Position numbers and translations under genes: made by a program. This document shows, piece after piece, positions 1,581 to 60,580 of a stretch of 64,000 nucleotides of DNA (its first letter is position 1; every line of letters begins with the position of its first letter). The notes below the pieces were generated by a model. That model was not told where the DNA came from, made no database searches, and was given only the letters and a program-made list of their open reading frames with translations. Origin of the DNA: Ferribacterium limneticum (GTDB lineage Bacteria; Pseudomonadota; Gammaproteobacteria; Burkholderiales; Rhodocyclaceae); contig NZ_CP075190.1 of NCBI RefSeq assembly GCF_020510585.1, positions 1,858,001-1,922,000 on the forward strand. The letters run 5' to 3'.

Positions 1581-2527
1581 GGCTGGCAGAGAGCGAGGGC
1601 TTCGAGGCAGAGCTGGCGATGACGCTCGCCGCTGCCGGTCGGGATGTCGACGCCGGGCAGGCGCAGTCCGTAATGGGCGTCGGCCACATCGGCGGCGAGC
1701 ACCCAGCCGGTCAGGATGCCGATCCGGGTTTCGTCGCTCAGCGCGGTGTCGGTCAGTTGCCAGTCGAGCCTCAGTTCAACCTGCGCACCGCCGGCAAATT
1801 GCTTGATCAGCAGCGGGCCATTGGCGTTACGGGCGCTGGCCTTCCAGGCGACGTGGCGCGGCGAGTCGGCCGGCTGGCGGTCGCGAAATCCGGCGAAATC
1901 CTCCTGCCCGCCATCGCCGCTGCGTTCGCCGCCAACTGGCGTCGGTGAGGCAACCGGCAGTGGCGCGGCAATCGGCTGCGGATAGACCAGGCAGCGCATG
2001 GCCGGTTGCAGGTAGGCCCAGGCGGTAAACAGGCCGAGCGGATAGCGGGTTGATAGCCGGATGCGCGGCAAATCCAGCCAGCCCCGGGTTTTCGCGCTGA
2101 CCGGAATGTTCAATTTTGAGCTTTTTTTCCGGTTGACCGTAGCAAACACCGGGTTGCCGCTTTCGGCCTCCAGTTCGAGCCCGAGGCGCGGGGTAGGGCG
2201 GTCGTTGTCGAGCGTGATCTGAAAATGCGCCGTTTCCCCGGCAAAAACCGGCGCGCTGCGCCCCGGCGTGACGATCAGCCCGTGCAGGTTGCGAAAGGTG
2301 TGGATCATGCCGACGATGCCCAGCCCGGCGAGCAGGAAAACCAGCGCGTGACCGAGTGCCAGGTTGTAGTTGATGGCGCCGATCAGCATGACGATGAGCG
2401 CCAGGGCGTAGAGCAGGCCGCCGCGCGAGGGGATGATGAAGACGCGCCGCTGGCCGAGGCGCATGGGTGCCGTGCCGTCGCTATGCCAGCGAAACAGTTT
2501 TTGCTGCAGGGTGGCGACGATGCCCAC
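1577..2527 (-). CDS. DUF58 domain protein with an embedded dispersed repeat
   Basis: This 316-residue protein has two N-terminal membrane segments (about residues 30-75) followed by a beta-rich domain and the DUF58 region (RHVAWKASARN, about residue 220). It lies 5 bp downstream of the MoxR ATPase gene and overlaps the next gene by ATGA, so the three form one operon. Family function is poorly known; MoxR/DUF58 pairs are thought to act as chaperone and client or in envelope stress. Residues about 127-139 (ATVNRKKSSKLN) are encoded by a copy of the window's dispersed repeat read on its antisense strand. The flanking sequence resumes normal DUF58 similarity, so the repeat is an in-frame insertion in a loop. 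Confidence 0.85.
   Translation of the reverse strand: MGIVATLQQKLFRWHSDGTAPMRLGQRRVFIIPSRGGLLYALALIVMLIGAINYNLALGHALVFLLAGLGIVGMIHTFRNLHGLIVTPGRSAPVFAGETAHFQITLDNDRPTPRLGLELEAESGNPVFATVNRKKSSKLNIPVSAKTRGWLDLPRIRLSTRYPLGLFTAWAYLQPAMRCLVYPQPIAAPLPVASPTPVGGERSGDGGQEDFAGFRDRQPADSPRHVAWKASARNANGPLLIKQFAGGAQVELRLDWQLTDTALSDETRIGILTGWVLAADVADAHYGLRLPGVDIPTGSGERHRQLCLEALALCQP
2111..2146 (+). repeat. Dispersed repeat, copy 1 (inside DUF58 gene)
   Basis: CAATTTTGAG, a T run, then CCGGTTGACCGTAGCAAAC. It lies in the DUF58 coding sequence on the antisense strand. Confidence 0.85.
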
Positions 2528-2532
2528 GGAGC

Positions 2533-3483
2533 TCAGGGAATGGCGACGGTGCGGATCAGGGCGGTGATGTCTTCGGCCAGCGCGTAGCCACCCCCCTGCG
2601 CCGAGCGCAGGCGGTGCCGGGCGACGGCCGGGAGGACGGCCTGCACGTCGTCGGGCAACACCATGTCGCGCCCGGCCAGCCAGGCCCAGGCGCGGGCGGC
2701 GGCGAGCAGGGCGAGGCCGGCGCGCGGCGACAGGCCATGCTGGTAGGCTGGATTCTGGCGCGTCGCTTCGACCAGTGCCTGGACGTAATCGATCAGCGGA
2801 CCGGCCGCGTGGATGGCTGATGCTTCCTGCTGCAAGGCTGGCAGGTCATCGGGCGCGAGCAATGGCGTCAGTTCCTCGACGCGGCGCCGCTGACCACCGG
2901 CGACGAGCAGGGCGCGTTCGGCGGTGCGGTCCGGGTAGCCGAGTTCGAGGCGCATCAGGAAGCGGTCGAGCTGTGATTCGGGCAGCGGAAAAGTGCCGAT
3001 CTGGTGCGCCGGGTTCTGCGTGGCGATGACGAAGAAGGGCGTCGGCAACATTCGCGTCTGGCCCTCGGCCGTGACCTGGCCTTCCTCCATTGCTTCAAGC
3101 AGGGCGCTCTGCGTTTTCGGTGTGGCGCGGTTGATCTCGTCGGCCAGCACAAGCTGGGCGAAGACCGGGCCGGGCAGGAAACGGAAGTCGCTGCGCTCGC
3201 GCTCGAAAACCGAAACACCGGTGATGTCGGCCGGCAGCAAATCGCTGGTGAACTGGATGCGCGAAAACTGCAGCCCGAGCAGCCGGGCCAGCGTGTGGGC
3301 CAGCGTCGTCTTGCCCATGCCCGGCAGGTCTTCGATCAGTAAATGGCCGTTGGCCAGCAGGCAGGCAATGGCCAGCCGGATTTCATGATCCTTGCCGAGA
3401 ATGATCCGGCCAGCCTGCTCGAGAACGCCGTCGAATGCCCGCGGGCGACCGGCAAGTCCGGAAAGTGTGCTTTTCAACATCAT
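2533..3483 (-). CDS. MoxR-family AAA+ ATPase
   Basis: This 316-residue AAA+ ATPase has Walker A DLPGMGKTTLAHT near residue 54, Walker B LVLADEINRATPKTQ near 110, sensor 1 FFVIATQNPAHQIGTF and a C-terminal lid domain, the usual MoxR length and order. It is first in an operon with the DUF58 and transglutaminase genes. It probably remodels or loads a partner protein at the membrane. Two consecutive ATG codons open the frame; the upstream one at 3483 is used here. The divergent gap to the deacetylase gene (3484-3600) must hold the promoter of both units, but no convincing -35/-10 pair was seen. Confidence 0.92.
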   Translation of the reverse strand: MMLKSTLSGLAGRPRAFDGVLEQAGRIILGKDHEIRLAIACLLANGHLLIEDLPGMGKTTLAHTLARLLGLQFSRIQFTSDLLPADITGVSVFERERSDFRFLPGPVFAQLVLADEINRATPKTQSALLEAMEEGQVTAEGQTRMLPTPFFVIATQNPAHQIGTFPLPESQLDRFLMRLELGYPDRTAERALLVAGGQRRRVEELTPLLAPDDLPALQQEASAIHAAGPLIDYVQALVEATRQNPAYQHGLSPRAGLALLAAARAWAWLAGRDMVLPDDVQAVLPAVARHRLRSAQGGGYALAEDITALIRTVAIP

Positions 3484-3600
3484 GGGATTCCGCTGTGTCT
3501 GTTCAAACCCATTCTAATGCTTGAAGCGGCGCGATGAATGGGACGATAATGACAATTCGACGTGCGCCGTTTTGTGCGCCGCTTCGCAGAGAGAGAACAA

Positions 3601-4527
3601 GTGACGACCACTGCCATCATCACCCATCGTGACTGCCAGTTGCACGACATGGGTTCGCATCACCCGGAATGCCCGCAGCGTCTGACCGCCATCAACGATC
3701 ACCTGATCGCTCAGGGGATCGACGCCTATTTCGTCTACTACGACGCGCCGCTCGCCACTTTTGAACAACTGATGCGCGTCCATCCCGCTTCTCATCTCGA
3801 ACGCCTCAAGCGTGCCTCGCCGGAACTGGGCGTCGTGCACCTCGACCCTGATACCGCGATGAATCCGCACACCTGGCAGGCTGCGCTGCGGGCTGCCGGG
3901 TCCGGCTGTCTGGCCGTCGACCTCGTCATGAAGGGCGAAATCGAAAACGGTTTCTGTGCCGTGCGACCGCCCGGTCATCACTGCGAGAAAGCAAACCCGA
4001 TGGGTTTCTGCTTCTTCAACAATGTCGCCGTCGCGGCAAAACATGCCCTTGTGGCCCACGGCCTGGAGCGCGTGGCAATCATCGATTTCGACGTGCACCA
4101 CGGCAACGGTACCGAAGACTGCTTTGCCGGTGACGAGCAGGTACTGATGTGCTCCATCTTCCAGCACCCGTTCTATCCCTACTGTGGCACCGACAAGCCG
4201 GCTGCCAATATGTGCAACGTGCCGCTGGCCTCGGGTTGCGGCGGCGAAGAATTCCGCGATGCCGTCACCCAGGTGTGGATGCCTCGCCTGCGCGAATTCA
4301 AGCCGCAGATGATCCTGATTTCGGCCGGTTTTGACGCCCACTTCGAGGACGACATGGGCAACCTGCGCTTCCTCGAAAAAGACTATGCCTGGGTCACCGA
4401 TCAGCTCAAACAGCTGGCCGCCGAAATGTGCAACAAGCGTATCGTCTCCATGCTTGAAGGCGGCTACGTGATGACCTCGCTGGCCCGTAGTGTTGGCGCG
4501 CACCTGCGCTCGCTGGCTGATCTGTAG
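3601..4527 (+). CDS. Histone deacetylase family protein (acetoin utilization/acetylpolyamine amidohydrolase-like)
   Basis: This 308-residue arginase/deacetylase-fold enzyme carries RPPGHHCEKANPMGFC, the zinc-binding IIDFDVHHGNGTED, SAGFDAHFEDD and LEGGYV (catalytic Tyr), all expected for a class II-type HDAC family enzyme. The GTG at 3601 is chosen over an upstream GTG at 3562 because it follows the purine-rich GAGAGAGAAC and puts TTAIITHRDCQLHD at the N terminus, as in relatives. The natural substrate in bacteria is uncertain (acetyl-lysine, acetylpolyamine or other amide). It is a monocistronic gene, followed by a possible terminator and lysC. Confidence 0.9.
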   Translation: MTTTAIITHRDCQLHDMGSHHPECPQRLTAINDHLIAQGIDAYFVYYDAPLATFEQLMRVHPASHLERLKRASPELGVVHLDPDTAMNPHTWQAALRAAGSGCLAVDLVMKGEIENGFCAVRPPGHHCEKANPMGFCFFNNVAVAAKHALVAHGLERVAIIDFDVHHGNGTEDCFAGDEQVLMCSIFQHPFYPYCGTDKPAANMCNVPLASGCGGEEFRDAVTQVWMPRLREFKPQMILISAGFDAHFEDDMGNLRFLEKDYAWVTDQLKQLAAEMCNKRIVSMLEGGYVMTSLARSVGAHLRSLADL

Positions 4528-4553
4528 CCGCTGTTTTCTTTCGGAAAAAGACC

Positions 4554-4582
4554 AGGGTGGGGTAAAATCCCGCCCTCTTTTT
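4554..4582 (+). terminator. Possible terminator between deacetylase gene and lysC
   Basis: An 8-bp stem with one G-T pair (AGGGTGGG / CCCGCCCT) encloses the loop GTAAAAT and is followed by CTTTTTC. The loop also contains TAAAAT, which could instead be the -10 of a lysC promoter. Both readings are possible. Confidence 0.4.
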
Positions 4583-4612
4583 CATGTTTCCAATGTTTAA
4601 CCGGACAAATCC

Positions 4613-5833: not shown

Positions 5834-5835
5834 GT

Positions 5836-5864: not shown

Positions 5865-5878
5865 CCGCGCCTCTTGAT

Positions 5879-5971: not shown

Positions 5972-5983
5972 ATATCAAGCAAT

Positions 5984-6591: not shown

Positions 6592-6603
6592 GCCGGCGGC
6601 CAC

Positions 6604-6642
6604 TGCGACGGTCAACCGGAAATTTCGCCCAATTTTGAAATG
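6604..6642 (-). repeat. Dispersed repeat, copy 2 (convergent gap)
   Basis: Read on the minus strand it gives CATTTCAAAATTGGGCG, then AAATTTCCGGTTGACCGTCG. It lies between the 3' ends of the DUF4124 gene and the GIY-YIG gene. Confidence 0.9.
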
Positions 6643-7958: not shown

Positions 7959-8589
7959 ACCACTGCCCATGCTGTCATTGCTGGAAACCCGTGTACTCGG
8001 CACCCTCGTCGAAAAACAGCGCACTGTGCCCGACACCTATCCGCTCTCGGTTAATGCGCTGCTCGCCGGCTGCAACCAGAAAACGAGCCGTAATCCGGTC
8101 ATCGAAGCCAGCGAGAGCGATGTCGTGCAAGCCATCGATGTCCTGAAAGGTCTCTGGCTGGTCAATGAAATCAGCGGCAGCCGGGTCAGCCGTTTCGAGC
8201 ATCGTCTCGAAAAGATTCTCGGCGTGCCGACACAAGCCTCGGCACTGCTCACCGTGCTCATGCTGCGCGGGCCGCAAACGGCCGGCGAACTGCGCCTCAA
8301 CTGCGAACGCCTGCACCGCTTTGCCGACATCTCGTCGGTCGAAGCCTTCCTCGAAGAACTGGCCAGCAGGGAAGAGGGCGCATTGGTCGTCGAACTGCCG
8401 CGCCTGCCCGGATCGCGCGAAAACCGCTGGATGCACCTGCTCAGCGGCGAGCCGGAAATCGAAACGATGCTACCGGCAAAGTCGTCGCATACGCCCAACC
8501 AGGAAGTCGAAGAATTAAAGGCGAGGGTGACCGCGCTTGAAACCGAGCTGGCTGAAATGCGCACCCGTCTAACTGCAATCGGCGCATGA
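7951..8589 (+). CDS. yceH: YceH/DUF480 family protein
   Basis: This 212-residue protein starts with LLETRVLGTLVEKQRTVPDTY and contains NALLAGCNQKTSRNPV and LMLRGPQTAGELR, the diagnostic blocks of the two winged-helix DUF480 fold. A C-terminal coiled-coil (about residues 180-210) follows. The ATG at 7951 overlaps the exonuclease stop. The stop overlaps the next ATG (ATGA). The fold suggests nucleic acid or protein interaction, but no function is established. Confidence 0.9.
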   Translation: MAEPLPMLSLLETRVLGTLVEKQRTVPDTYPLSVNALLAGCNQKTSRNPVIEASESDVVQAIDVLKGLWLVNEISGSRVSRFEHRLEKILGVPTQASALLTVLMLRGPQTAGELRLNCERLHRFADISSVEAFLEELASREEGALVVELPRLPGSRENRWMHLLSGEPEIETMLPAKSSHTPNQEVEELKARVTALETELAEMRTRLTAIGA

Positions 8590-13873: not shown

Positions 13874-15322
13874 ATGACTTTTCAGCAATTCCTCCTCATC
13901 CTCTGGGCGCGCCGCAAGCTGGCGTTGTCGATTTTTGGCGTCACCGTGCTGACCACGCTGGTCATCAGCCTGATCCTGCCCAAGGAATACACCGCCACCA
14001 CCTCGCTGGTCATCGACGTCAAGTCACCCGATCCCATCGCTGGCATGATCATGCAGGGCATGATGGCGCCTGGCTACATGGCGACGCAGATGGACATCAT
14101 CAACAGCGACCGCGTGGCCACCCGCGTCGTCAAGCTGCTTGGCTTCGAGAAGAGTGCCGATGCCGTCGAGAAGTGGAAGGAAGCCAGCGAAGGCAAGGGC
14201 ACGTTGGAAAGCTACTACGCCGCAATCCTGCAAAAGAAGCTCGACATCAAGCCCTCCCGCGAGAGCAACGTCATCAACGTGAATTTCTCCGGTGCCGACC
14301 CGATGTTTGCCGCGGCCGTCGCCAACGCCTTTGCCCAGGCCTACATCGACACCTCCATCGAAATGCGCGTCGAACCGGCCCGCCAATACAGCGCCTGGTT
14401 TGAAGAACGCCAGAAAGGCCTGCGCGCCAATCTGGAAAAAACCCAGTCCCGCCTTTCTGCCTACCAGCAGGAAAAAGGCATCGTCGTTACCGACGACCGC
14501 ATGATCGACAACGAAACGGCCCGCCTCAACGATCTGACCATGCAGCTTTCCGCCACCCAGGCCCAGCGCGCCGACGCCTCCAGCCGGCAAAAGAGCGGGA
14601 CCAGCGAACTCTCACTCGAAGTGCTGCAGAATCCCCTGATCCAGGGGCTCAAGGCTGATATCGCCCGTGCTGAATCGCAGCTTTCGCAAATCGGCAGCAA
14701 CCTCGGCAAGAACCACCCGCAAGTCCTGCAGCTTGAAGCTCAGATCGAGGAACAGCGCCAGCAACTGCGCCAGGAAATTGGCCGCATTTCCGGCGGTAAC
14801 GCCGTCGCCAGCAAGTTCGGTGTCGTCAAGCAGGACGAACTCAAGAGAGCTATCGAAGAGCAGAAAAAGCGCGTGCTGGCCATCCGCTCCGAGCGCGATG
14901 AACTCAGCGTGCTGGTCAACGACGTCGAAACCGCCCGCCGCGCCTACGAGGCCGTCGGCCAGCGCATGACGCAAAGCAACCTCGAAGGCCAGTCGCAGCA
15001 GACCAACGTGCTCGTGCTCAGCCCGGCCACCGAGCCGACGCAGCACTCACGGCCCAAAGTTTTCCTCAACGTGCTGGTCTCCATCTTCCTCGGCACCATG
15101 CTCGGTGTAGGCGCCGCGCTCGTGCTCGAACTCAGCCAGCGCCGCATCCGTTCGGCCGAAGACCTCACTCTGGCGCTTGACCTGCCCGTGCTCGCCGAAC
15201 TCGATTCCGCGCTGCCCAAGGCAAAAAGAGGGTTTCGATTTTGGGCAAAAAATCCGGTTGACCGTGGCAATCGCGAACCCGCTCTCAATACCGGCAATCA
15301 GCCAGCCGCAGCGAAGGCCTGA
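13874..15322 (+). CDS. epsF: EpsF chain-length determinant (Wzz/GumC-type) with embedded repeat near C terminus
   Basis: This 482-residue inner-membrane co-polymerase has a Wzz domain with TM1 near residues 18-36 (LALSIFGVTVLTTLVISLIL), a long periplasmic coiled-coil (about 170-370), and TM2 near 395-415 (VFLNVLVSIFLGTMLGVGAA). It would set polymer length together with the EpsG kinase. Residues about 454-466 (RFWAKNPVDRGNRE) are encoded by the sense strand of a dispersed repeat copy. They fall in the cytoplasmic tail just after PVLAELDSALP, the region that contacts the kinase in related systems. Confidence 0.93.
   Translation: MTFQQFLLILWARRKLALSIFGVTVLTTLVISLILPKEYTATTSLVIDVKSPDPIAGMIMQGMMAPGYMATQMDIINSDRVATRVVKLLGFEKSADAVEKWKEASEGKGTLESYYAAILQKKLDIKPSRESNVINVNFSGADPMFAAAVANAFAQAYIDTSIEMRVEPARQYSAWFEERQKGLRANLEKTQSRLSAYQQEKGIVVTDDRMIDNETARLNDLTMQLSATQAQRADASSRQKSGTSELSLEVLQNPLIQGLKADIARAESQLSQIGSNLGKNHPQVLQLEAQIEEQRQQLRQEIGRISGGNAVASKFGVVKQDELKRAIEEQKKRVLAIRSERDELSVLVNDVETARRAYEAVGQRMTQSNLEGQSQQTNVLVLSPATEPTQHSRPKVFLNVLVSIFLGTMLGVGAALVLELSQRRIRSAEDLTLALDLPVLAELDSALPKAKRGFRFWAKNPVDRGNREPALNTGNQPAAAKA
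15236..15272 (+). repeat. Dispersed repeat, copy 3 (inside epsF)
   Basis: CGATTTTGGGCAAAAAAT, then CCGGTTGACCGTGGCAATC, in frame in the epsF C-terminal tail. Confidence 0.85.
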
Positions 15323-16334: not shown

Positions 16335-16374
16335 CATTTCATTTTTCGGCAAAATTTCCGGTTGACCGTAGCAG
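16335..16374 (+). repeat. Dispersed repeat, copy 4 (epsG-xrtB gap)
   Basis: CATTTCATTTTTCGGCAAAA, then TTTCCGGTTGACCGTAGCAG. It is 22 bp before xrtB and follows the hairpin at 16292. Confidence 0.9.
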
Positions 16375-16395
16375 TCAGCCGCCAAAGGTCTGGCA

Positions 16396-33862: not shown

Positions 33863-33907
33863 CATTTCATTTTTGGTCGATTTTTCCGGTTGACCGTAGC
33901 AATCAAC
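33863..33907 (+). repeat. Dispersed repeat, copy 5 (before manC copy 1)
   Basis: CATTTCATTTTTGGTCGAT, then TTTTCCGGTTGACCGTAGCA, extended by ATCAACG. GTTGA and TCAAC form a small inverted repeat at its right end. Confidence 0.9.
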
Positions 33908-35378: not shown

Positions 35379-35406
35379 TTTGGCGGCTGGCGGCGCTGGA
35401 TGGGCT

Positions 35407-35445
35407 TGCTACGGTCAACCGGAAATTTGGGCTGATTTTGAAATG
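35407..35445 (-). repeat. Dispersed repeat, copy 6 (after manC copy 1)
   Basis: Read on the minus strand: CATTTCAAAATCAGCCC, then AAATTTCCGGTTGACCGTAG. It is oriented opposite to copy 5 across manC. Confidence 0.9.
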
Positions 35446-36813: not shown

Positions 36814-37872
36814 ATGATTTTAGTTACCGGTGCAGCAGGTTTTATCGGCAGTAATTTCGTGTTGGACTGGCTGGCCCAGTCCGATGAGCCGGTCATCAAC
36901 CTCGATGACCTGACCTACGCGGGTAACCTCGAGAACCTCGCTTCGCTTGATGGCGATGCGCGGCATATCTTCGTCAAGGGCAGCATCGGCGACTTCGATC
37001 TGGTGTCGAAGTTGCTGGCCGAGCACCAGCCGCGGGCGGTGGTCAATTTTGCTGCCGAATCGCACGTCGACCGCAGCATCCATGGCCCGGAAGACTTCAT
37101 CCAGACCAATATCGTCGGCACCTTCCGCCTGCTCGAAGCCGTGCGGGCTTTCCACGGTCAACTGGAAAAAACGGCAAAAAATGAATTCCGGTTTCTTCAT
37201 GTGTCGACCGACGAAGTTTACGGTTCGCTGGCCAAGGATGATCCGGCCTTTACAGAAACCCACCAGTACGAACCGAACAGCCCGTACTCGGCGAGCAAGG
37301 CGGCGAGCGACCATCTGGTGCGCGCCTACCACCACACCTACGGCCTGCCGGTACTGACTACCAACTGTTCCAACAACTACGGTCCTTACCATTTCCCGGA
37401 AAAGCTGATCCCGCTGGTCATCCACAACGCGCTGGCCGGCAAGGCGCTGCCCATCTACGGCGACGGCCAGCAGATTCGTGACTGGCTCTACGTCAAGGAT
37501 CACTGCAGTGCCATCCGCCGCGTGCTTGAAGCGGGCAGGGTCGGCGAGACCTACAACGTCGGTGGCTGGAACGAGAAACCGAATCTCGACGTCGTGCATA
37601 CGCTGTGCGCCATCCTCGACGAACTCAGCCCGCGCGCCGACGGCAAGCCTTACGTCGAGCAGATCACCTACGTCACCGATCGCCCGGGCCATGATCGTCG
37701 CTACGCGATTGACGCGACCAAGATCGAACGCGAACTCGGCTGGAAGCCGGCCGAAACCTTCGAAACCGGCATCAAGAAGACCGTGCAGTGGTATCTGGAT
37801 AACCAGGCCTGGGTGGCCAATGTGACCAGCGGCGCTTACCAGAACTGGGTCGGCAAGCAGTACAGCGTCTGA
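36814..37872 (+). CDS. rfbB: dTDP-glucose 4,6-dehydratase with embedded dispersed repeat
   Basis: This 352-residue enzyme has [45 protein letters not shown] and [20 protein letters not shown] (Tyr-x3-Lys). It makes dTDP-4-keto-6-deoxyglucose, the second step to dTDP-L-rhamnose. Residues about 112-124 ([13 protein letters not shown]) correspond to a dispersed repeat copy read antisense, in a surface loop just before the conserved [10 protein letters not shown] block that varies in length in the family. It is first in the order rfbB-rfbD-rfbA-rfbC. Confidence 0.96.
37151..37186 (-). repeat. Dispersed repeat, copy 7 (inside rfbB)
   Basis: Read on the minus strand: AATTCATTTTTTGCCGTTTT, then TTCCAGTTGACCGTGGA. 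One core base differs (CCAG for CCGG). It is in frame in rfbB. Confidence 0.75.
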
Positions 37873-40254: not shown

Positions 40255-40301
40255 GGATTTTGTTTTTGGGCTAAATTCCCAGTTGACCGTAGCAATCAAC
40301 G
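40255..40301 (+). repeat. Dispersed repeat, copy 8 (before manC copy 2)
   Basis: GGATTTTGTTTTTGGGC, then TAAATTCCCAGTTGACCGTA and GCAATCAACG. Its right half is identical to copy 5, as part of the manC duplication. Confidence 0.88.
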
Positions 40302-48484: not shown

Positions 48485-49075
48485 GTGACACTCGCATCCC
48501 GTCTTAAGCCACTCGTTCTTGCCGCTTCCCTAGTGGCCTCTACCATGGCGCTCGCAGCTTCCGGTGATTTTGTAGTTGATGCCAATGCAAATAGTACCGG
48601 TGGGGGCGTTGGTGTGGCGACTTTTGCGCTGCTTGCCGGTCAGGAGTTTTCCGTTTCGGTTGCTGCCAACGATCTTTGGAGCGCTGGCCCCCTCCCGCGT
48701 TGGTCAAACGCTGATGGTTTGGTGGGCGATCTATTCTACACAGCCGGCACTGATTCGGAAGTTCCGGTTTATGCAATTGGCACCCAGATTGGCCAAGCCT
48801 TTTCGCAACACGGCCAAGGCGGTCTGAGCGCTGCTTACGGAAGTCTGGTCGGGCAGATTGGTAACGGAAGTTTTTTCAAGATTGGCACGAGTTATAGCGG
48901 TACGGCTACTGCAGCGGGTATCTTGAACCTCTACTATTTCGACTCCATTAATTCGGATAACACGGGCAGCATTTCGGCTCACGTTTCCGCAGTTCCCGAG
49001 CCGGAAACCTATGCCATGCTGTTGGCCGGTCTCGGCCTGTTGGGTGGCATTTATCGTCGCCGCAAACAAAAGTAA
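48485..49075 (+). CDS. PEP-CTERM sorting-domain protein
   Basis: This 196-residue protein has a signal peptide (PLVLAASLVASTMALA), a Gly/Ser-rich beta body and the C-terminal tail VPEPETYAMLLAGLGLLGGI followed by YRRRKQK, a textbook PEP-CTERM sorting signal and a predicted XrtB substrate. The GTG at 48485 places the signal peptide properly. It has an AGTC-box promoter 72 bp upstream and a strong terminator downstream, so it is transcribed alone. Its role is not known; its body is unlike that of the other PEP-CTERM protein. Confidence 0.9.
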   Translation: MTLASRLKPLVLAASLVASTMALAASGDFVVDANANSTGGGVGVATFALLAGQEFSVSVAANDLWSAGPLPRWSNADGLVGDLFYTAGTDSEVPVYAIGTQIGQAFSQHGQGGLSAAYGSLVGQIGNGSFFKIGTSYSGTATAAGILNLYYFDSINSDNTGSISAHVSAVPEPETYAMLLAGLGLLGGIYRRRKQK

Positions 49076-49145: not shown

Positions 49146-49700
49146 CTATTGCGCTACTGCTCGCGGATCGGGTTGGAAATTGAAACATCCGGCGACCTTG
49201 TTCCGGTGAATGCTTTGAACCGGTAGTAGGCCCCATGAGATATTGATCACGCCTTCACCAGCCATCAACAATAGCCAGTCTTCTTCTTTAACTGCTACGT
49301 TCCTGCCTTGCCGGCATTGATCGAGAAAAACCGGTAGTTCGCGGTCGTCGAGCAGTCCTATACCCAGGCTCGTTTCGAGCAGGATGCTGCCTTCTTCGTC
49401 GAGGTAAATGGCCTTGATTTCACCGGCTGGCTTGCCGGTGTGGCTGACGAAGGACTCGCCGTCGCGGTGGAAGACCCATGGGGTGTAGGCCAGTTCAACG
49501 AAAACCCGTTGCGGGCCGTTCTGCAGAAACCAGCAGCCTGACTCGTCACAACCGTACTGCCGGTTGATGAAGTTGATCAGGCCGCTGTGCGTCACGCGCT
49601 CCCCTTGCAATCGCCAGTCGCCCCGCCGGTCGAGCGACAGCCAGTCGTAACAGGCGGGGACGTTGGGCCACTTGGCGATGGCGGAGAGATCGACGGTCAT
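49146..49700 (-). CDS. Conserved hypothetical protein (DUF2946-like) downstream of gcvP
   Basis: This is a 184-residue soluble protein starting [20 protein letters not shown] and containing HSGLINFINRQYGCDESGCW and QNGPQRVFVELAYTPWVF. It resembles a family of uncharacterised proteins common in betaproteobacteria, but I am not certain of the Pfam label. The start overlaps the gcvP stop (TAATG), so it is translated with the glycine cleavage operon. No function is known. It lacks a signal peptide or membrane segments. Confidence 0.7.
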   Translation of the reverse strand: MTVDLSAIAKWPNVPACYDWLSLDRRGDWRLQGERVTHSGLINFINRQYGCDESGCWFLQNGPQRVFVELAYTPWVFHRDGESFVSHTGKPAGEIKAIYLDEEGSILLETSLGIGLLDDRELPVFLDQCRQGRNVAVKEEDWLLLMAGEGVINISWGLLPVQSIHRNKVAGCFNFQPDPRAVAQ

Positions 49701-52606
49701 TAGTCGGCGTAGGCTTCCATCGGCGGACAGGCGCAGTTCAGGTTGCGGTCGCCGTACACATCGTCGATGCGATTGACGCTCGGCCAGAACTTGTTGGCAG
49801 CCACCCAGGGCAGCGGAAAGACGGCTTGCTCGCGGCTATACGGGTGTTTCCAGTCGCCATCAATGACGTCCGCCTGCGAATGCGGAGCATTCTTGAGCGG
49901 GTTGTTGTCAGCCGACCAGACGCCATTTTCGATCTGGCGGATTTCCTCACGGATGCTGACCAGGGCTGCGATGAAGCGGTCCAGTTCAGCCTTCGATTCG
50001 GATTCCGTCGGCTCGACCATGATCGTGCCCGCCACCGGGAAGGACACTGTCGGTGCGTGGAAGCCGTAGTCCATGAGGCGCTTGGCGATGTCGGTTTCGC
50101 TGATCCCGGTCGCTGCCTTGAGCGGGCGAATGTCAAAGATGCACTCGTGGGCGACGCGGCCGTTCTTGCCGACGTAGAGCACGGGGTAATGGGCCTTCAA
50201 CTGCTGGGCAACGTAGTTGGCGTTGAGGATGGCGACTTGCGTGGCCTTCTTGACGCCTTCACCGCCGAGCATGGCGAGATACATCCACGAAATGGTCAGG
50301 ATCGAGGCCGAACCGAACGGGGCGGCGGAAACGGCGCCCTGACCGGCATTGACGCGGTTGGCGTCGCCCGTTGGCTGGACGGCGTGGTCGGCCATGAATG
50401 GCGCCAGATGGGCCTTGAGGCCGATCGGCCCCATGCCCGGTCCGCCGCCGCCGTGGGGGATGGCGAAGGTCTTGTGCAGGTTCATGTGGCTGACGTCGGC
50501 GCCGATGAAGCCGGGCGAGGTCAGGCCAACCTGGGCGTTGAGGTTGGCGCCGTCCATGTACACCTGGCCGCCGTTGGCATGGACGATGGCACAGATGTCG
50601 CGCACCGCTTCCTCGAAGACGCCGTGGGTGGACGGGTAGGTGATCATCAGGCAGGCGAGGTCATCCTTGTGTTCCTCGGCCTTGGCCTTGAGGTCGGCGA
50701 CATCGACGTTGCCGCTGTCATCGCAATCGACAACGACGACCTTCATGTTGGCCATCTGCGCCGTGGCCGGGTTGGTGCCGTGCGCCGATTTCGGAATCAA
50801 GCAGACGTTGCGGTGAGCTTCGCCACGGCTGGCGTGGTAGCGGGCAATCGCCACCATGCCGGCATATTCGCCCTGGGCGCCGGAGTTCGGCTGCATGCAG
50901 ATGGCGTCGAAGCCGGTGATGGTCTTCAGCCACTCGGTCAGGCCATCGATCATTTCGAGATAGCCGACGGCCTGATCGCGCGGCGCGAACGGGTGCAGGC
51001 CACCGAATTCCGGCCAGGTGACCGGGATCATTTCGCTGGTCGCGTTCAGCTTCATGGTGCACGAGCCGAGCGAGATCATCGAGTGGTCGAGGGCCAGGTC
51101 CTTGTTCTGCAGCGACTTGAGGTAGCGCAGCATCTCGTGTTCGGTGTGGTGCGTGTTGAATACCGGGTGCTGGAGCACGGCGTCACTGCGGATCAGCGCG
51201 TCGGGCAGGGCAGAGTCGGCGGCGGCGACCTGGGCGTCGATGGCGTCCATGTCCAGCGTGACCTGGGTGATCAGCTTGAACAGGGTGGCGACATCAGCTC
51301 GCGTCGTGGTTTCGTCGAAAGAAATGCCGAGCACACCGGCCGAGACGCGGCGCAGGTTATAACCGGCGGCCAGGGCGTCGTGATAGACGGTTTCAGCGCG
51401 GGCGCCAAGGTCAAGATGCACGGTGTCGTAGAACTGCTTGGTCAGCAGGCTGACGCCGGCGCGCTTGAGGCCCTCGGCGAGGATCGCAGTCAAACGATGG
51501 ATGCGGCCGGCGATGGTGCGCAGGCCTTCGGCGCCGTGATAGACGGCGTACATGCCGGCCATGTTGGCGAGCAGCACTTGCGAGGTGCAAATGTTGGAGT
51601 TGGCCTTCTCGCGGCGGATGTGTTGCTCACGGGTCTGCAGGGCCATGCGGTAGGCCGTCTTGCCGCGGGCATCCTTGGACAGGCCGATGATGCGGCCCGG
51701 CATCGAGCGGACGAAGGCTTCGCGGGTGGCGAAGAAGGCGGCGTGCGGACCGCCGAAGCCCATCGGGATGCCGAAGCGCTGGCTCGAGCCGAGGGCGATG
51801 TCGGCACCCATGGCGCCGGGCGACTTGAGCAGGACCAGCGCCATAAGGTCGGAGGCGACGGCAACGGTCGTGCCCTTGGTCTTGAGGGCGGCGATGGTCG
51901 CGGTCAGATCGCGGACTTCGCCGTTGTCGCCCGGGTACTGGAGCAGGGCGCCGAAGAAATCTTCACTTTCGATTTTTGGGCCATTTTGCGGGTTGACCGT
52001 GGCAATGACCAGTTCGAAGCCGAAATAGCCGGCGCGGGTCTTGACCACGTCAATTGTCTGCGGGAAGCAGTTGGCATCGACCAGAAAGCGATTGGATTTC
52101 GACTTGGAAACTCGACGCGCCATGGTCATTGCTTCGGCTGCGGCGGTGGCTTCGTCGAGCAGTGAGGCGTTGGCGATTTCCAGGCCGGTCAGGTCGACGA
52201 CCATCTGCTGGAAATTCATCAGTGCTTCGAGGCGGCCCTGGGCGATTTCAGCCTGGTAAGGCGTGTAGGCGGTGTACCAGCCCGGGTTTTCCAGAACATT
52301 GCGGACGATGACTTTGGGCGTCATGGTGTCGTAATAGCCCATGCCGATGCAGGACTTGTTGACGACATTCTTGCTGGCGATGGCCTTGAGGTCGGCTAGT
52401 GCTTCGTGTTCGCGACGCGGCGCGGGCAGCGGCAGGTCAGCCGGCAGGCGGATGGCGGCGGGGACAGTCTGTTCGATCAGCTGTTCGAGACTCTCGGCCC
52501 CGATGGCGGCCAGCATGGCGGCCATTTCGGTTGAGCACGGGCCTATGTGACGGCCAATGAACTCGTCGTGCTGCTCCAGGGCTGAAAGGGGAAGATTCAA
52601 CGGCAT
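49700..52606 (-). CDS. gcvP: Glycine dehydrogenase (P protein) with embedded dispersed repeat
   Basis: This 968-residue PLP enzyme of the glycine cleavage system has FIGRHIGP at the N terminus, [13 protein letters not shown], and the PLP-lysine block [19 protein letters not shown]. It decarboxylates glycine and passes the aminomethyl group to GcvH. ATG at 52606 follows AAGGA; an upstream in-frame start would run through REP hairpins. Residues about 200-214 ([14 protein letters not shown]) are encoded by a dispersed repeat copy read antisense, between ELV and [11 protein letters not shown], where relatives vary in length. Confidence 0.96.
51964..52006 (+). repeat. Dispersed repeat, copy 9 (inside gcvP)
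   Basis: CACTTTCGATTTTTGGGCC, then ATTTTGCGGGTTGACCGTGG and CAATG. It is antisense to gcvP and in frame. Confidence 0.8.
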
Positions 52607-53122: not shown

Positions 53123-54214
53123 TTAGATGACTGCTTTGCCGTTGCGGGCGAATACGGGTTTGGTGACCTTGGCCTTGAGCGCCTTGCCACGAATATCGAC
53201 TTCGACTTCTTCGCCGATCTGCACGCCGAGCGGCAGGCGGGCGAGGGCGATGGACTGCTGGAGCGTCGGCGAGAAACTGCCGGAGGTGATTTCACCGTCG
53301 CCGTGCGGGGTCATGACCTTCTGATGGCCGCGCAGCACGCCCTTGTCGAGCAAGATCAGGCCGAGGAATTGTTTCTGCTGGCCAGCCGCGGTCAACGCGG
53401 ATTTACCGACGAAATCACGATCGGTATTGAGCGAAACGGTCCACGCCAGACCGGCGTCGAGCGGCGAAACCGTTTCATCCATGTCCTGGCCGTAGAGATT
53501 CATGCCGGCTTCGAGGCGCAGCGTGTCGCGGGCACCGAGGCCGCAAGGGACGACGCCGACGGCATTGAGCTTGTTCCACAGTGATTCAGCTTCGCCGGCA
53601 GGCAGCATGATTTCGTAGCCGTCTTCACCGGTGTAGCCGGTGCTGGCGATGAAGTACTGATCGACTTCAGCGGCGAAGAAAGCCTTCAGACCTTCCGTCG
53701 CAGCTTTGGCCTGCGGCAGCACTTCCCAGACCTTGGCCCGGGCATTCGGGCCCTGCACGGCGATGATGCCGAGATTGTTGGCTCCGTCGCGGCGCTGGGT
53801 GATGGTCACGTCGAGTTTCCACTCGGTGACCTTGGCCTGCATCCAGGCCAGATCCTTTTCGGCGGTGCCGGCATTGACGACGATGCGGAAGCGCGTGTCG
53901 GTCAGGAAATAGATGATCAGGTCGTCGATGACACCGCCAGCGTCATTGAGCATGGCCGCGTAAAGCGCCTTGCCGGAAACCTTGAGTTTGGCCACATCGT
54001 TGGCGACGAGGCGGGAGAGGAAGGGGCGGCAATCGGCGCCGACGACGTCCACCGGGCACATGTGCGAAACATCGAACATGCCGCAGTTGTTGCGTACGGC
54101 ATGGTGCTCCTCGATCTGCGAGCCGTAGTTCACTGGCATGTCCCAGCCACCGAAATCGACCATCCGGGCGTTCATTGCGCGGTGAGCGGCATTTAAAACC
54201 GTTTTCTTCAGCAT
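53123..54214 (-). CDS. gcvT: Aminomethyltransferase (glycine cleavage T protein)
   Basis: This 363-residue folate enzyme has [49 protein letters not shown] and [20 protein letters not shown], all conserved in GcvT. It releases ammonia from the H-protein intermediate and forms 5,10-methylene-THF. It is the first gene of the gcvT-gcvH-gcvP operon, preceded by a tandem glycine riboswitch. Confidence 0.97.
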
Positions 54215-54257: not shown

Positions 54258-54301
54258 AAAAAGGGGTGAAACGAAAGATCGGATCTTGCGTTTCACCCCT
54301 C
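54258..54301 (-). terminator. Riboswitch-linked terminator upstream of gcvT
   Basis: On the minus strand AGGGGTGAAACG pairs with CGTTTCACCCCT, followed by TTTTTCG. The stem begins directly after the second glycine aptamer, so it is the likely expression platform, terminating when glycine is low. Confidence 0.85.
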
Positions 54302-54470
54302 TGTCCTCGATACCTGAGAGATTTGCCCCATCGGTGGATGCCAGCAGTAGCCGCCATCGCTCTCCAGAGTTTTTTGGCTTGCGCCGTGTTCCGCGGTCCT
54401 TTTGCCTGAGCGTTTTCGGGTGGTTTTGCGCCTTCGGCGGCAGACGGATCTGCGCTCTCCCACGGAACGG
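54302..54470 (-). ncRNA. Tandem glycine riboswitch
   Basis: Minus-strand sequence shows both aptamers. The first has GGGAGAGC, GCCGCCGAAGGCGCAA and CTCAGGCAAAAGGACCG. The second has CTGGAGAGCG, CCACCGATGGGGCAA, CTCTCAGGTA and GACAGAGGGG. These are the family's conserved glycine-binding blocks. Two aptamers before gcvT are usual in proteobacteria and switch on the cleavage system when glycine is abundant. Confidence 0.95.
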
Positions 54471-54475
54471 GTGGC

Positions 54476-55421: not shown

Positions 55422-55423
55422 GC

Positions 55424-56050: not shown

Positions 56051-56051
56051 G

Positions 56052-56708
56052 ATGCTGGATATCAATGCCATCGTCCAGACCATCGCGATTCTTGCGCTGC
56101 CGCTGGTTTTCGCCATCACCTTGCATGAAGCAGCCCACGGCTACGCTGCTCGCCATTTCGGCGATCCGACCGCCTGGCAGGCCGGACGGATCAGCCTGAA
56201 TCCTTTACGCCACATCGATCCAATCGGCACCATCCTGATTCCGCTCAGTATCCTGTTGTTTTCCGGCGGCAATTTCCTGTTCGGCTATGCCAAGCCGGTG
56301 CCAGTCGATTTCAATCGCCTGCGTGATCCGAAAAAAGACATGTTCTGGGTTGCCGCCGCCGGTCCGGGTGCCAATCTGCTGATGGCCTGCCTGTGGGCGC
56401 TGGCCTTCAAACTTTCGTGGTTGCTGCCGCAGTTTTTCAGTACGCCGCTGGCACGCATGGCTGAAATGGGTATCCAGATCAATTGCGTGTTGATGGTGCT
56501 CAATCTGTTTCCCTTGCCGCCGCTTGATGGCGGGCGGATTGCCGTCAGCCTGCTGCCGCATTCGATAGCCTGGAAATTTGCCAGGCTTGAGCCCTGGGGC
56601 TTTCCGATTTTGCTGGTGCTGTTGTTCACCGGTATCCTCGGCGCAATCATGAATCCGCTGGTCAATACGTCAGCCGGGCTTATCGCACTCATTTTTGGTC
56701 TCTACTAA
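56052..56708 (+). CDS. Site-2 protease family (M50) membrane metalloprotease
   Basis: This 218-residue protein with about six membrane segments has the zinc-binding ITLHEAAHGYAAR (HExxH) and the second motif NLFPLPPLDGGRIA. It is a compact rhomboid-like M50 peptidase without PDZ or CBS domains. Its substrates are unknown. ATG at 56052 overlaps no upstream gene and begins one base after the YciO stop. It is followed 9 bp later by trpS. Confidence 0.92.
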   Translation: MLDINAIVQTIAILALPLVFAITLHEAAHGYAARHFGDPTAWQAGRISLNPLRHIDPIGTILIPLSILLFSGGNFLFGYAKPVPVDFNRLRDPKKDMFWVAAAGPGANLLMACLWALAFKLSWLLPQFFSTPLARMAEMGIQINCVLMVLNLFPLPPLDGGRIAVSLLPHSIAWKFARLEPWGFPILLVLLFTGILGAIMNPLVNTSAGLIALIFGLY

Positions 56709-56717
56709 ATAAATAAT

Positions 56718-57920
56718 ATGTACGCAGAACGTGTTCTCTCCGGCATGCGCCCGACCGGGTCGCTGCATCTTGGCCACTACCATGGCGTTCTCAAAAACTG
56801 GATCGAACTCCAGCACGAGTATCCCTGCCTGTTCTTCGTCGCTGACTGGCATGCGCTGACCACGCAGTACGATAACCCGCAGGGTATCGAGAAGGCCTCG
56901 ATGGACATGGTGGTCGACTGGCTGGCGGCCGGTGTCGATCCCAACCAGGCGACGCTGTTCGTCCAGTCGCGGGTGCCCGAGCACGCCGAACTGCACCTGC
57001 TGATGTCGATGATGACGCCGCTGAGCTGGCTGGAGCGCGTGCCGACCTACAAGGACCAGCAGGAAAAGCTGGCCGGCAAGGATTTGACGACCTACGGCTT
57101 CCTTGGCTATCCGCTGCTGATGAGCGCCGACATCCTGATCTACCGCGCCGACAAAGTGCCGGTCGGTGAGGACCAGATTCCGCACGTTGAATTCACCCGC
57201 GAACTGGCCCGTCGCTTCAACCACATGTATGGCCGCGAGCCGGGCTTTGAGGACAAGGCGCGCGAAGCCGTCAAGAAACTGGGCAGCAAGAAGGCGCGCC
57301 TTTATGAAGAAATGCGCACCCGTTTCCAGCAGAACGGCGACCGCGAAGCCATCGAGCAGGCGAAGGCTGTGCTCGATGAAGTGCAGCACCTGTCGATGGC
57401 CGACCGCGAGCGCCTGTTCGGCTACCTCGAAGGTACCGGCAAGATGATTCTGGTCGAGCCTGGTTACCTGCTGACCGAAGCCTCCAAGATGCCGGGGCTG
57501 GATGGCCAGAAGATGTCCAAGTCGTACAACAATACGATCACCATGCGCGAATCCGAGGAATCGGTAACCAAGAAGGTACGCAGCATGCCGACCGATCCGG
57601 CGCGCGTGCGTCGCACCGACCCGGGCGAGCCGGCCAAGTGCCCGGTCTGGCAATTGCATCTCGTCTATTCCAACGATGCTTGCAAGGAGTGGGTGCAGCA
57701 GGGCTGCCGCACGGCCGGGATTGGTTGCATCGAATGCAAGCAGCCAGTCATTGACGCCATCCTCAAGGAACAGGCGCCGATGCGCGAGCGCGCACAGGTT
57801 TATCTGGACGATCCGACGTTGGTCAAGAACATCATTGCCGACGGCTGCGAGAAGGCGCGTGAATACGCCCGCGAAACGATGCGTGACGTGCGCGAAGCGA
57901 TGGGGCTGGAATACCACTGA
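56718..57920 (+). CDS. trpS: Tryptophanyl-tRNA synthetase
   Basis: This 400-residue class I synthetase has SGMRPTGSLHLGHYHGVLKN (HIGH-type motif) and GQKMSKSYNN (KMSKS), with FVADWHALTT between. It charges tRNA-Trp. It is a longer form than E. coli TrpS, as in many betaproteobacteria. The stop shares a base with the next start (TGATG), coupling it to the LAB_N protein. Confidence 0.97.
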   Translation: MYAERVLSGMRPTGSLHLGHYHGVLKNWIELQHEYPCLFFVADWHALTTQYDNPQGIEKASMDMVVDWLAAGVDPNQATLFVQSRVPEHAELHLLMSMMTPLSWLERVPTYKDQQEKLAGKDLTTYGFLGYPLLMSADILIYRADKVPVGEDQIPHVEFTRELARRFNHMYGREPGFEDKAREAVKKLGSKKARLYEEMRTRFQQNGDREAIEQAKAVLDEVQHLSMADRERLFGYLEGTGKMILVEPGYLLTEASKMPGLDGQKMSKSYNNTITMRESEESVTKKVRSMPTDPARVRRTDPGEPAKCPVWQLHLVYSNDACKEWVQQGCRTAGIGCIECKQPVIDAILKEQAPMRERAQVYLDDPTLVKNIIADGCEKAREYARETMRDVREAMGLEYH

Positions 57921-58210
57921 TGTTCGATATGGACTGGGAAACGCTGATCTGGATTGGCATCGGCTTCGGCGGGCAGGCGCTGTTCATGATGCGCTTCGTT
58001 ATCCAGTGGTGGAGCAGTGAAAAAGCCAAGATGGTCGTCATACCAGTGTCGTTCTGGTATTTCAGCCTGGCCGGCGGCATCGTGCTGACCATTTACGCCA
58101 TCCACCGCAAGGACCCGGTTTTCATCTTCGGCCAGGCACTCAGTCTGGTCATCTACGTTCGCAACCTGCATCTGCATTACAAAGGCAAGGGCCGCACTGC
58201 GGCCTCCTGA
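57920..58210 (+). CDS. Lipid-A-disaccharide synthase N-terminal (LAB_N) domain membrane protein
   Basis: This 96-residue protein with three membrane helices has GGQALFMMRFVIQWWSSEK, VIPVSFWYFSLAGGI and the ending LVIYVRNLHLHYKGKG, the LAB_N domain. Homologous domains occur in ArnE/lipid A modification contexts; stand-alone members lack a known activity. It is translationally coupled to trpS and starts a run into scpA four bases later. Confidence 0.88.
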   Translation: MFDMDWETLIWIGIGFGGQALFMMRFVIQWWSSEKAKMVVIPVSFWYFSLAGGIVLTIYAIHRKDPVFIFGQALSLVIYVRNLHLHYKGKGRTAAS

Positions 58211-58214
58211 GCGC

Positions 58215-59054
58215 ATGAGCGACGTCCTCGAAGTGCTTCCGGTTGGCGAAGTCGAGCCAGTGGCCCGTGTTTACGGGCAGCCGCTCGAGCAGATGCCGCT
58301 TGATCTGTACATCCCGCCGGATGCGCTGGCCATCATGCTCGATGCCTTCGAGGGGCCGCTTGACCTCCTGCTGTACATGATTCGCCGCGCCAACATCGAT
58401 ATCCTCGATATCCCGATGGCGCCGCTGACCCGGCAATATCTCGATTACGTCGAGGCGATGCGGGCGAGTAATCTCGAGCTGGCCGCTGATTACCTCGTGA
58501 TGGCGGCGATGCTCATCGAAATCAAGTCGCGCATGCTGTTGCCCCGGCCGAAGCTGGGCGAGGGCGATGACGCAGAAGATCCGCGTGCCGAGTTGGTTCG
58601 CCGGCTCATGGAGTACGAGCAGATGAAGCTCGCCGGCCAGAATCTGAATGCGATGCCGCAGGCCGAGCGCGAGTTTTTCTGGGTCGAGACGCTGGTCGAA
58701 AAATCGCTGCTGGTCCGTCAGCCGGAAGTCTCGGTCGATGATCTCAAGGAGGCCTGGATGGCGGTTGTCCGTCAGGCTGGCCTGAAAAAGCACCACCAGA
58801 TCGGGCGCGAAGAATTGTCGGTGCGCGAGCACATGGGCATCATTCTGCGCGCCTTGCAGGCCAAAGGTGGTTTTGTTCAGTTCGAGACCCTGTTCGACCC
58901 TGAAATGGGCGTACCGGGTCTGGTTGTCCATTTCATTGCCATGCTTGAACTGGGCCGCGAAAAACTGATCGAAATCACCCAGACCGAAGCCTTTCAACCC
59001 ATTTACGTCAGAGTGCATCAAGGTGGAACCGAGCCAGGTCAAGAGAGTGCTTGA
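58215..59054 (+). CDS. scpA: Segregation and condensation protein A
   Basis: This 279-residue kleisin has [38 protein letters not shown] and a C-terminal winged helix (about 210-265). With ScpB it bridges SMC in the condensin complex that compacts and segregates the chromosome. The 3' end overlaps scpB by 32 bp, the usual tight coupling. Confidence 0.95.
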
Positions 59055-59568
59055 GGCAGCCCTGCTCGCCGCCCGCGAGCCGATGTCGCCGAGCGAAATG
59101 AAAAAGATGTTCGACGAGGATCTGTCGACCGATACCTTGCGCAAGCTGCTCGACGAGTTGCGCGAGGAATGGGCCGAACGGCCGGTCGAGCTGATCCAGC
59201 TCGCCTCCGGTTGGCGCTTCCGGACGCGGCCCGAATATCTGCCGTATTTGGAACGCCTGAACCCGGAACGGCCGCCGAAATACTCGCGCGCCGTCCTTGA
59301 AACCTTGGCCATCATCGCTTATCGCCAGCCGGTGACGCGTGGCGATATCGAGGAAATCCGCGGCGTTGCAGTCAATACCAACGTCGTCAAAACCCTGGAA
59401 GAGCGCGGCTGGATCGACGTTGTCGGCCATCGCGAAACGCCAGGCCGGCCGGCCCTGTTTGCCACCACCAAACAATTTCTCGATGATCTGGGACTGAGAA
59501 GCGTCAGCGAACTGCCGCCGCTCGAACAAATCGCCCAGACACTGGAGCTGAACTATGAAAACCAATAA
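59023..59568 (+). CDS. scpB: Segregation and condensation protein B
   Basis: This 181-residue protein has [36 protein letters not shown] and [20 protein letters not shown], followed by RGV. This gives two winged-helix domains of the condensin accessory subunit. GTG at 59023 lies inside scpA. The stop overlaps the rluB start region. Confidence 0.95.
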
Positions 59569-60580
59569 ACGCACGCCACTTCGTTCCGCCAGCAAGCCGG
59601 GCGGATTTCAAAAAAGGCCGGAAATTCCGGTTGACCGTAACAATCCGGCCCCGCGCGGCCGCACCTCCCGCAATGCACGCGATGAGGCGCCCGAGGCCGA
59701 AGAAGTGGTCGAGGCGCCCAAGCCGCGCCGTCGCGCCGCGCTGCCGGCAACCGGCCGGGCCAGTCGTGGCAACATAGCCCGCAACGGCAAGGCCGTAGTC
59801 GAAGCCAAGCCCGAGCGTCTGCAGAAGATTCTGGCCCAGGCCGGCGTCGGTTCGCGCCGCGAAATGGAAGAATGGATTTCGGCCGGTAAGGTCACCGTCA
59901 ATGGTGTTGTGGCGACCATCGGCCAGTCCGTCGTGCCGACCGACAAGGTCAAGATCGGCGGCCGGTTGATCAACATCCGCTTCACCGGCAGCACCCGTCC
60001 GCCGCGCGTCCTGATGTATCACAAGCCGGAAGGCGAAATTGTCTCGCGTGACGACCCGGATGGCCGTCCGTCGGTGTTCGCCGCGCTGCCCCGCATGCGC
60101 GGCGGTCGCTGGATCAATGTCGGCCGTCTTGACTTCAATACCTCAGGTTTGCTCATCTTCACGACCTCCGGCGATCTGGCCAACAAGCTGATGCACCCGA
60201 GTTCGGAGCTGGTTCGTGAATACGCCGTGCGCGTGCTCGGCGAACTGACGCTCGAAGCGCAGCAGCAATTGCTGCATGGCGTCGAACTCGAGGATGGCCG
60301 GGCCAATTTCGGGACGTTGCACGACGGCGGTGGCGAAGGTGCCAACCACTGGTATCGCGTCACTATCTTTGAAGGTCGCAACCGCGAAGTGCGTCGCATG
60401 TTCGAGGCAGTTGGCGTTACGGTCAGCCGACTGATCCGTGTCCGCTACGGCCCGTTCGTGCTGCCGCCGCAACTGAAACGTGGCATGGCGCGCGAGCTCA
60501 AAGAGGTGGAAATCAAAATGCTGCTGCGCGACCTCGAAAACAACTCACCAGCGTCCCGAAAGGGCCATGAAAGCACGTAA
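59555..60580 (+). CDS. rluB: 23S rRNA pseudouridine synthase B with embedded dispersed repeat
   Basis: This 341-residue protein has an N-terminal low-complexity basic extension (1-85), an S4 domain ([20 protein letters not shown]) and the RluB/E/F/RsuA catalytic block [20 protein letters not shown] with catalytic Asp. It isomerises a uridine near the peptidyl-transferase centre. Residues about 17-31 ([15 protein letters not shown]) come from a dispersed repeat copy read in the sense direction, inside the disordered tail. It overlaps the scpB end. Confidence 0.93.
59605..59645 (+). repeat. Dispersed repeat, copy 10 (inside rluB)
   Basis: ATTTCAAAAAAGGCCGG, then AAATTCCGGTTGACCGTAAC and AATCC, in the sense direction within the rluB N-terminal tail. 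Confidence 0.88.

Follow-up and report, generated by a model that had tools for sequence, protein, structure and literature searches.

A 41-bp motif dispersed through the genome of Ferribacterium limneticum, a candidate DNA uptake sequence

The motif in the window and in the genome

The window analyzed here, a stretch of 64,000 nucleotides of Ferribacterium limneticum (contig NZ_CP075190.1, positions 1,858,001 to 1,922,000), carries a short dispersed repeat that we describe as a candidate DNA uptake sequence. A preliminary description of the window listed ten copies. All ten are present, with coordinates right within about 5 bases, and we added one weak eleventh copy (Table 1). Nine matches to the core with at most three mismatches were counted in the window, versus a mean of 0.01 in shuffled sequence. 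The copy read at 37151(-) has four core mismatches yet scores 54.6 bits on the 75-column matrix described below, indicating that it is a genuine copy.

The training set of the matrix was the window plus 20 stretches, each of 20 kb, taken across the genome (464 kb in total). It delimits a unit of 41 bp, from positions -22 to +18 relative to the core start, so that the length of about 40 bp first proposed is refined to a unit with sharp edges: the information per position drops to about 0.1 bit or less just outside both ends, for a total of about 47 bits over the 75 modelled columns. The consensus is ATTTCAATTTTGGCCN(T/A)6CCGGTTGACCGTRGCAATC. From left to right it is made of A/T-T-T-T, a C, A-tract 1 (about -17 to -12), a GGCC-like segment, A-tract 2 (-6 to -1), CCGGTTGACCG and a looser right arm, TRGCAATC. 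The motif is therefore built from two A-tracts and a near-invariant GTTGACCG core spaced by about one helical turn, and GT.GACC is practically invariant among 87 tabulated sites. The centers lie at about -14.5 for A-tract 1, -3.5 for A-tract 2 and +7 for the core, and the resulting distances of about 10.5-11 bases place the three elements on one face of the helix. In all four genomes sampled, the distance separating five-base A-tracts from GTYGACCG peaks at 14-15, with a second peak at 4-5. The tracts are AAATTT-like or TTTTTT-like strings in which TpA steps are scarce (6 versus 46 expected in tract 1 and 21 versus 95 in tract 2, the expectation being obtained by column-shuffling). TpA avoidance in A-tracts is a signature of a rigid, narrow minor groove. 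This combination of tracts and core supports the protein-binding site that the preliminary description had put forward as one possibility.

In the 4.42-Mb single-contig genome (G000 hereafter), the core CCGGTTGACCGTAGCAATC is matched 421 times with at most three mismatches, 219 times on the forward and 202 times on the reverse strand, versus 2 matches for the pattern written backwards. With the matrix, 158 copies scoring at least 20 bits were found in 864 kb, corresponding to the training sequence plus 20 further stretches (sampled stretches bear L-numbers), and none in the reversed sequence. These copies split 84/74 by orientation, and 75 of them fall in the 400 kb outside the training set. 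Extrapolation gives about 808 copies in the genome, at a density of 0.18 per kb, and in the first 464-kb sample no other 9-mer is as strongly over-represented as the core. The scan, far above chance, confirmed that the dispersed repeat is real and larger than first described; the prediction of hundreds of copies in both orientations, tied to no particular operon, was borne out. Neither a tRNA, as the preliminary description had stated, nor an Rfam family at gathering thresholds was found at the copies, and four single-strand folds of three copies were only 0.6-1.8 standard deviations below shuffles; an RNA element was rejected on this basis.

Table 1. Positions of motif copies in the window, and of copies with an 18-bp insert in other sampled stretches
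Feature	Position	Strand	Context	Score and remarks
Motif copy	2107..2147	+	inside open reading frame (ORF) 1577-2527(-), no Pfam match	54.9 bits; core 1 mismatch
Motif copy	6601..6641	-	intergenic	53.5 bits; core 3 mismatches
Motif copy	15232..15272	+	inside ORF 13874-15322(+), Wzz/GNVR chain-length protein (Pfam)	52.3 bits
Motif copy	16336..16376	+	intergenic	57.7 bits
Motif copy	33864..33904	+	intergenic	61.7 bits; core 0 mismatches
Motif copy	35404..35444	-	intergenic	52.6 bits
Motif copy	37147..37187	-	inside ORF 36814-37872(+), nucleotide-sugar dehydratase/epimerase family (Pfam)	52.8 bits
Motif copy	40257..40297	+	intergenic	53.7 bits
Motif copy	51967..52007	+	inside ORF 49700-52606(-), glycine cleavage P-protein (Pfam)	47.2 bits; gapless, kept in G002
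Weak, doubtful eleventh copy	53381..53421	-	inside ORF 53123-54214(-)	~20 bits
Motif copy	59605..59645	+	near N-terminus of ORF 59555-60580(+), RNA pseudouridine synthase with S4 domain (Pfam)	46.1 bits; gapless, kept in G002
18-bp-insert copy	L162 8244-8284	-
18-bp-insert copy	L175 19696-19736	-
18-bp-insert copy	L161 10710-10750	+
18-bp-insert copy	L373

An 18-bp insert (ACGTTTCACGTAGTAAAC-like) common to four sampled copies of G000 sits precisely between A-tract 2 and the core. At the L162 site, this insert is missing from the relatives G002 and G012. It may be a tandem core that has since degraded; genuine tandem cores of 19 bp occur at 1569084-1569121 in the genome and around 17480-17520 in L412. 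Separately, 9- and 10-mers around CTGCTCG/CGAGCAG were strongly over-represented in G000 and in the genomes G002, G034 and G063, which could reflect codon usage or a Chi-like site.

Placement of the copies and comparison of orthologous sites

Gene positions were taken from our own gene calls, made by script, in which 86% of the sequence is coding. Among the 158 copies, 68 lie wholly inside genes, 72 are intergenic and 18 sit at gene edges, in a sample of which 13.6% is non-coding. The copies within genes comprise 45 in antisense and 23 in sense orientation, and the two reading frames of the consensus that contain a TGA are nearly unused (0/23 sense, 1/45 antisense), indicating that the in-gene copies are translated. 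The host genes named by Pfam are ordinary ones, such as those for the glycine cleavage P-protein, a pseudouridine synthase, HypF and a nucleotide-sugar dehydratase.

Along the chromosome, the copies avoid each other and are evenly spaced, only 2 of 120 neighbor gaps being shorter than 500 bp versus 13.5 in simulations. At least one copy was found in 38 of the 41 sampled stretches, so that no single domain is favored. An orientation bias with respect to replication, a point raised in the preliminary description, was not significant (86 versus 72 counted by eye, p=0.30, with replichore limits set from the sign of the GC skew). The density also depends on base composition: 4-kb windows below 58% GC hold 10 copies in 204 kb (0.049 per kb) versus 148 in 660 kb above it (0.224 per kb), that is, copies are 4.6-fold rarer in low-GC DNA (Spearman 0.36 over 216 windows). 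This scarcity runs counter to chance expectation, since an A/T-rich motif should be commoner there. GC content is a mere proxy for foreign DNA; L165, at 41% GC with a phage-type integrase, has no copies. A separate observation concerns L180 7924-8480 (G000 about 2447924-2448480), where a repeat about 550 bp long, whose inverted arms measure about 210 bp, has many matches in all six relatives compared and contains, in G000, a copy of the 41-bp motif at 8178-8218(-).

To follow how copies arise, we compared orthologous sites. The coding copy in the gene at L162:17113-19998(-) was examined in an alignment that took 25 of 30 loci, a 24th relative lacking this part of the gene. In 23 relatives, the 41 aligned bases are gapless, and the motif fades by substitution. 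A second copy in the same gene lies in a linker of variable length, again without a 41-bp gap. More broadly, 21 sites with alignable flanks, among 138 copies scoring at least 35, allowed 72 comparisons with six relatives, of which 40 retain the motif and 32 lack it; the latter span 13 sites and hence are not independent. In a separate comparison, the one behind the G002 entries of Table 1, several site-genome pairs without an anchor or with a failed one were left out of the count. The preliminary description had suggested a short mobile element and called for clean insertion boundaries at orthologous loci. Instead, a clean gap of 36-60 bases was seen in none of the 32 motif-less counterparts, and the longest individual gap in the vicinity of the element measured 24 bases. 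For the 18 motif-less coding counterparts, the length is identical in 10 cases and differs by a net 6-30 bases in 8. The length differences of the 14 non-coding counterparts, mentioned again below, are spread over several gaps, so that insertion is less firmly excluded there than in genes. Inside genes, the motif is a product of point substitution, with no inserted unit.

In close relatives, the motif is often retained at orthologous sites. G002 and G012 retained it in 26/26 comparisons, and all seven coding sites compared in G034, whose dialect differs, still score as motif. In 21 gapless comparisons with G002 or G012, motif identity was 0.926 versus 0.850 in the flanks, a value biased upward because the "present" sites were chosen by score.

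Range and dialects within the genus

The distribution of the motif among genomes was determined with a minimal pattern, AWWWT-N15-GTYGACCG. Of 76 genomes of the genus, 44, including G000, contain this pattern 40 times or more (maximum 623), and the reversed control never exceeds 3; the remaining 32 genomes have 2-37 matches. Over the 44 motif-rich genomes the two orientations are balanced (7967/7889). Among 199 sampled genomes of the family, 41-582 matches were counted in the 5 members of the genus and at most 9 in each of the 194 genomes from other genera, so that the motif is nearly restricted to one genus. An exact-core scan of named genomes gave, among the matches listed (at least 80 loci), Azonexus, Dechloromonas, Rhodocyclaceae, and unclassified beta- and gammaproteobacterial metagenome-assembled genomes. 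Clusters of three matches were noticed in two genomes from other genera (G142 contig 150, 38771-41481; G094 contig 38, 40226-42504), some of them motif-like; such sites, for instance those of G142 contig 150, are perhaps DNA exchanged with the genus.

The motif occurs in dialects. G034 shows the same 41-bp layout with a SCSGTYGACCGCRGCA core, 45 copies being found in 200 kb, a biased density as these stretches came from contigs known to carry matches and were scanned with no reversed control. G063 has almost no copies of the G000 form and carries a shorter GAAATT...GTCGACCGCTG form, with 238 sites in 400 kb (about 0.6 per kb) and 2 in the reversed control. The latter dialect was obtained with an iterative matrix and is independently backed by k-mers, the spacing test and the genus counts. 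In addition, the sampled stretches L301-L320 of G063 contain an array resembling clustered regularly interspaced short palindromic repeats, with about 90 repeats (GTTCCCCCGCGTTCGCGGGGATAGGCC...).

A tree of 24 genomes, built from one gene and rooted at the midpoint, has motif-rich genomes among its first branches and motif-poor genomes in several places. Five changes are needed on the best tree, at least three of which are forced by well-supported branches. This pattern suits an old trait that may have been lost several times, one gene and a midpoint root being too little to settle the point.

A candidate DNA uptake sequence and its alternatives

Taken together, these features led us to the interpretation that the motif is probably a DNA uptake sequence acting in natural transformation. 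Its abundance, its two orientations, its origin by substitution, its tolerance inside genes, its spacing, its apparent scarcity in atypical DNA, its dialects and its layout of tracts plus core resemble what the literature reports for such sequences. We infer that the cells are competent, that a receptor binds the motif and that uptake is biased accordingly. A DNA receptor at the cell surface, probably a type IV minor pilin, would read the core (GGTTGACCG here, GTYGACCG genus-wide) together with two narrow-groove A-tracts on one helix face. Fragments bearing the motif would be preferentially taken up and then recombined, and copies born by substitution could in this way spread through biased transformation, in genes and between them, until hundreds have accumulated.

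A close known counterpart is the uptake signal sequence (USS) of Pasteurellaceae, and the motif is built like the USS of Haemophilus. Both have a conserved core with a pair of A/T tracts to one side of it, these tracts being rigid with a narrow groove, both number hundreds to thousands of copies, and both form dialects around a fixed inner core. In the USS, a 9-nt core is followed by two A/T-rich regions downstream, for a length of up to 32 nt, and its dialects follow phylogeny (PMC12616744), and its A/T tracts are predicted to be rigid and slightly bent, tract shape being linked to uptake (PMC7811141). However, the cores differ (GTYGACCG versus AAGTGCGGT/ACAAGCGGT for USS), as do the lengths (41 versus up to 32 nt), and the motif has a lower density in F. 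limneticum, no close pairs and a host of a different bacterial class. Since its core is GTTGACCGT and lacks the GCGG inner core of USS, we did not class the motif as a USS.

The bacteria that use the DNA uptake sequence (DUS) of Neisseriaceae and the host of the motif are both Betaproteobacteria. As with DUS, for which the receptor is ComP, the motif has clade-specific dialects and occurs in a host with a pilin of the ComP_DUS family, and it may likewise be scarce in recently acquired DNA. DUS dialects are described across Neisseriaceae, five genomes of the family being reported without one (PMC3630211), and DUS are enriched in the core genome and scarce in recently gained DNA (PMC2397512). 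A biased orientation inside genes has been reported for uptake sequences (PMC2346458). In contrast to the motif, DUS are continuous sequences of at most about 13 nt that have CTG as their inner core and lack A-tracts (PMC12616744). The discontinuous 41-bp motif was therefore not classed as a DUS, and ComP_DUS matches are also found where the motif is absent or rare.

A 2025 paper (PMC12616744) names only two families with uptake sequences, Neisseriaceae and Pasteurellaceae. We are somewhat inclined, with less confidence than for an uptake function as such, to see in the motif a third family of signals for the uptake of self-DNA, one that evolved independently, with at least three dialects and several losses in one environmental genus, and with a 41-bp, three-turn, one-face site made of two minor-groove A-tracts and a specific core. 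Signals of this kind are already known; the novelty would lie in a case from a third family whose core is unrelated, and a 41-bp unit would be longer than any uptake signal in the literature compared.

Several observations do not favor an uptake function. The literature consulted, mostly outside subscription journals and preprints, yielded no paper on uptake sequences in Rhodocyclaceae, Dechloromonas or Azonexus. Inverted pairs at short distance, a frequent though not defining feature of USS and DUS, hardly occur, and the overall density is below that of USS or DUS, although the G063 form is denser. The low-density stretch L167 carries an EPSP (5-enolpyruvylshikimate-3-phosphate) synthase-cytidylate kinase gene, an ordinary core gene, which shows that a low density is no sure sign of foreign DNA. 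Among the motif-less non-coding counterparts, 12 of the 14 are shorter, by a net 2-36 bases, and 2 are longer. A few genomes of other genera have 6-9 pattern matches versus 0-1 in controls, the core variant of G034 is not its top 9-mer, and orientation leans weakly one way relative to the local GC skew (75 versus 54, p=0.08).

The competence genes do not discriminate either. ComEC is intact in G000 (696 amino acids; Pfam domains DUF4131, Competence and Lactamase_B), which also has a cluster of minor pilins including PilY1 and a pilin of the ComP_DUS family (PF16732), 14 of 16 N_methyl pilin matches being above the cut-off. However, ComEC was found in 36/40 genomes, motif-rich and motif-poor alike, and the ComP_DUS family in 53/60 genomes searched, including motif-poor or motif-less ones. 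These genes thus carry little weight, and the ComP_DUS pilin was dropped as a clue to the receptor. As a separate observation, comEC matches look truncated or split in the motif-poor G018 and G035, where a loss of competence is possible; several other motif-poor genomes have normal-looking comEC matches, and the comEC match of the motif-rich G008 is also split, with a stop.

The main alternative, also raised in the preliminary description, is that a cytoplasmic nucleoid, segregation or replication protein binds the motif to organize the chromosome. The A-tract plus core architecture would equally make a protein site, even spacing and chromosome-wide spread suit an organizing protein, and the retention in G002 and G012 together with the lean by local GC skew could be read in the same way. 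Known dispersed chromosomal protein sites such as matS, parS, KOPS (FtsK-orienting polar sequences) and Chi are regional, few or strand-polarized. The motif, in contrast, occurs in 38 of the 41 sampled stretches with no significant polarity, and a replication-polarized site of the KOPS or Chi kind was discarded for that reason. Dialects and several losses within a genus would be odd for a site of essential upkeep. Mutual avoidance and tolerance within genes do not favor such a role, and the formation of copies in conserved genes with amino-acid change suggests drive over placement. We therefore consider chromosome organization unlikely, although it keeps some plausibility.

Another explanation could be a transcription element, that is, a terminator, a promoter with TTGACC as -35, or an RNA processing site. 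Nearly half of the copies are intergenic, 23 of these 72 lying in convergent gaps versus 14% expected (p=1e-4), and 14 of the 158 copies directly follow a hairpin versus 3-4 in controls. On the other hand, many copies lie wholly within genes and in both orientations there, and there is no information past +18, hence no fixed -10 partner. A promoter or terminator was thus ruled out as the main function, and a transcription element of any of these kinds appears very improbable.

Repetitive extragenic palindromic sequences (REP), miniature inverted-repeat transposable elements (MITE) and Rickettsia palindromic elements are dispersed short repeats, some in genes, that are inserted and usually palindromic. 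A mobile element of this type inserting as a 41-bp unit would fit the sharp edges, the dispersal in both orientations and the net 26-36 bases missing from some motif-less non-coding counterparts, but was rejected, being largely contradicted by the gapless coding copy, formed by substitution, and by the lack of a clean gap, to which the weak folds and the collections searched with the core pattern (no exact match in viral contigs, no match in plasmids, one weak 25-base match in phages) add, making this the least credible of the alternatives.

If the motif is an uptake sequence, natural competence is predicted in Azonexus/Dechloromonas. These bacteria matter for wastewater treatment and perchlorate reduction. 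The genus would also offer a natural series of dialects and losses that could help to identify the receptor and to tell drive from selection. Finally, PMC7811141 raises the idea that uptake tags are most important in host mucosa, where foreign DNA abounds, and environmental bacteria would provide a third case on which to test it.

Three minor features of the window were noted in passing. A tandem glycine riboswitch lies at 54291-54472(-), near the glycine cleavage genes. The stretch 48987-49065, similar to several places in the relatives, encodes what we take to be a PEP-CTERM-like tail (VPEPETYAMLLAGLGLLGG...). A short stretch at 52632-52705 matches several places in G012 and one in G005.

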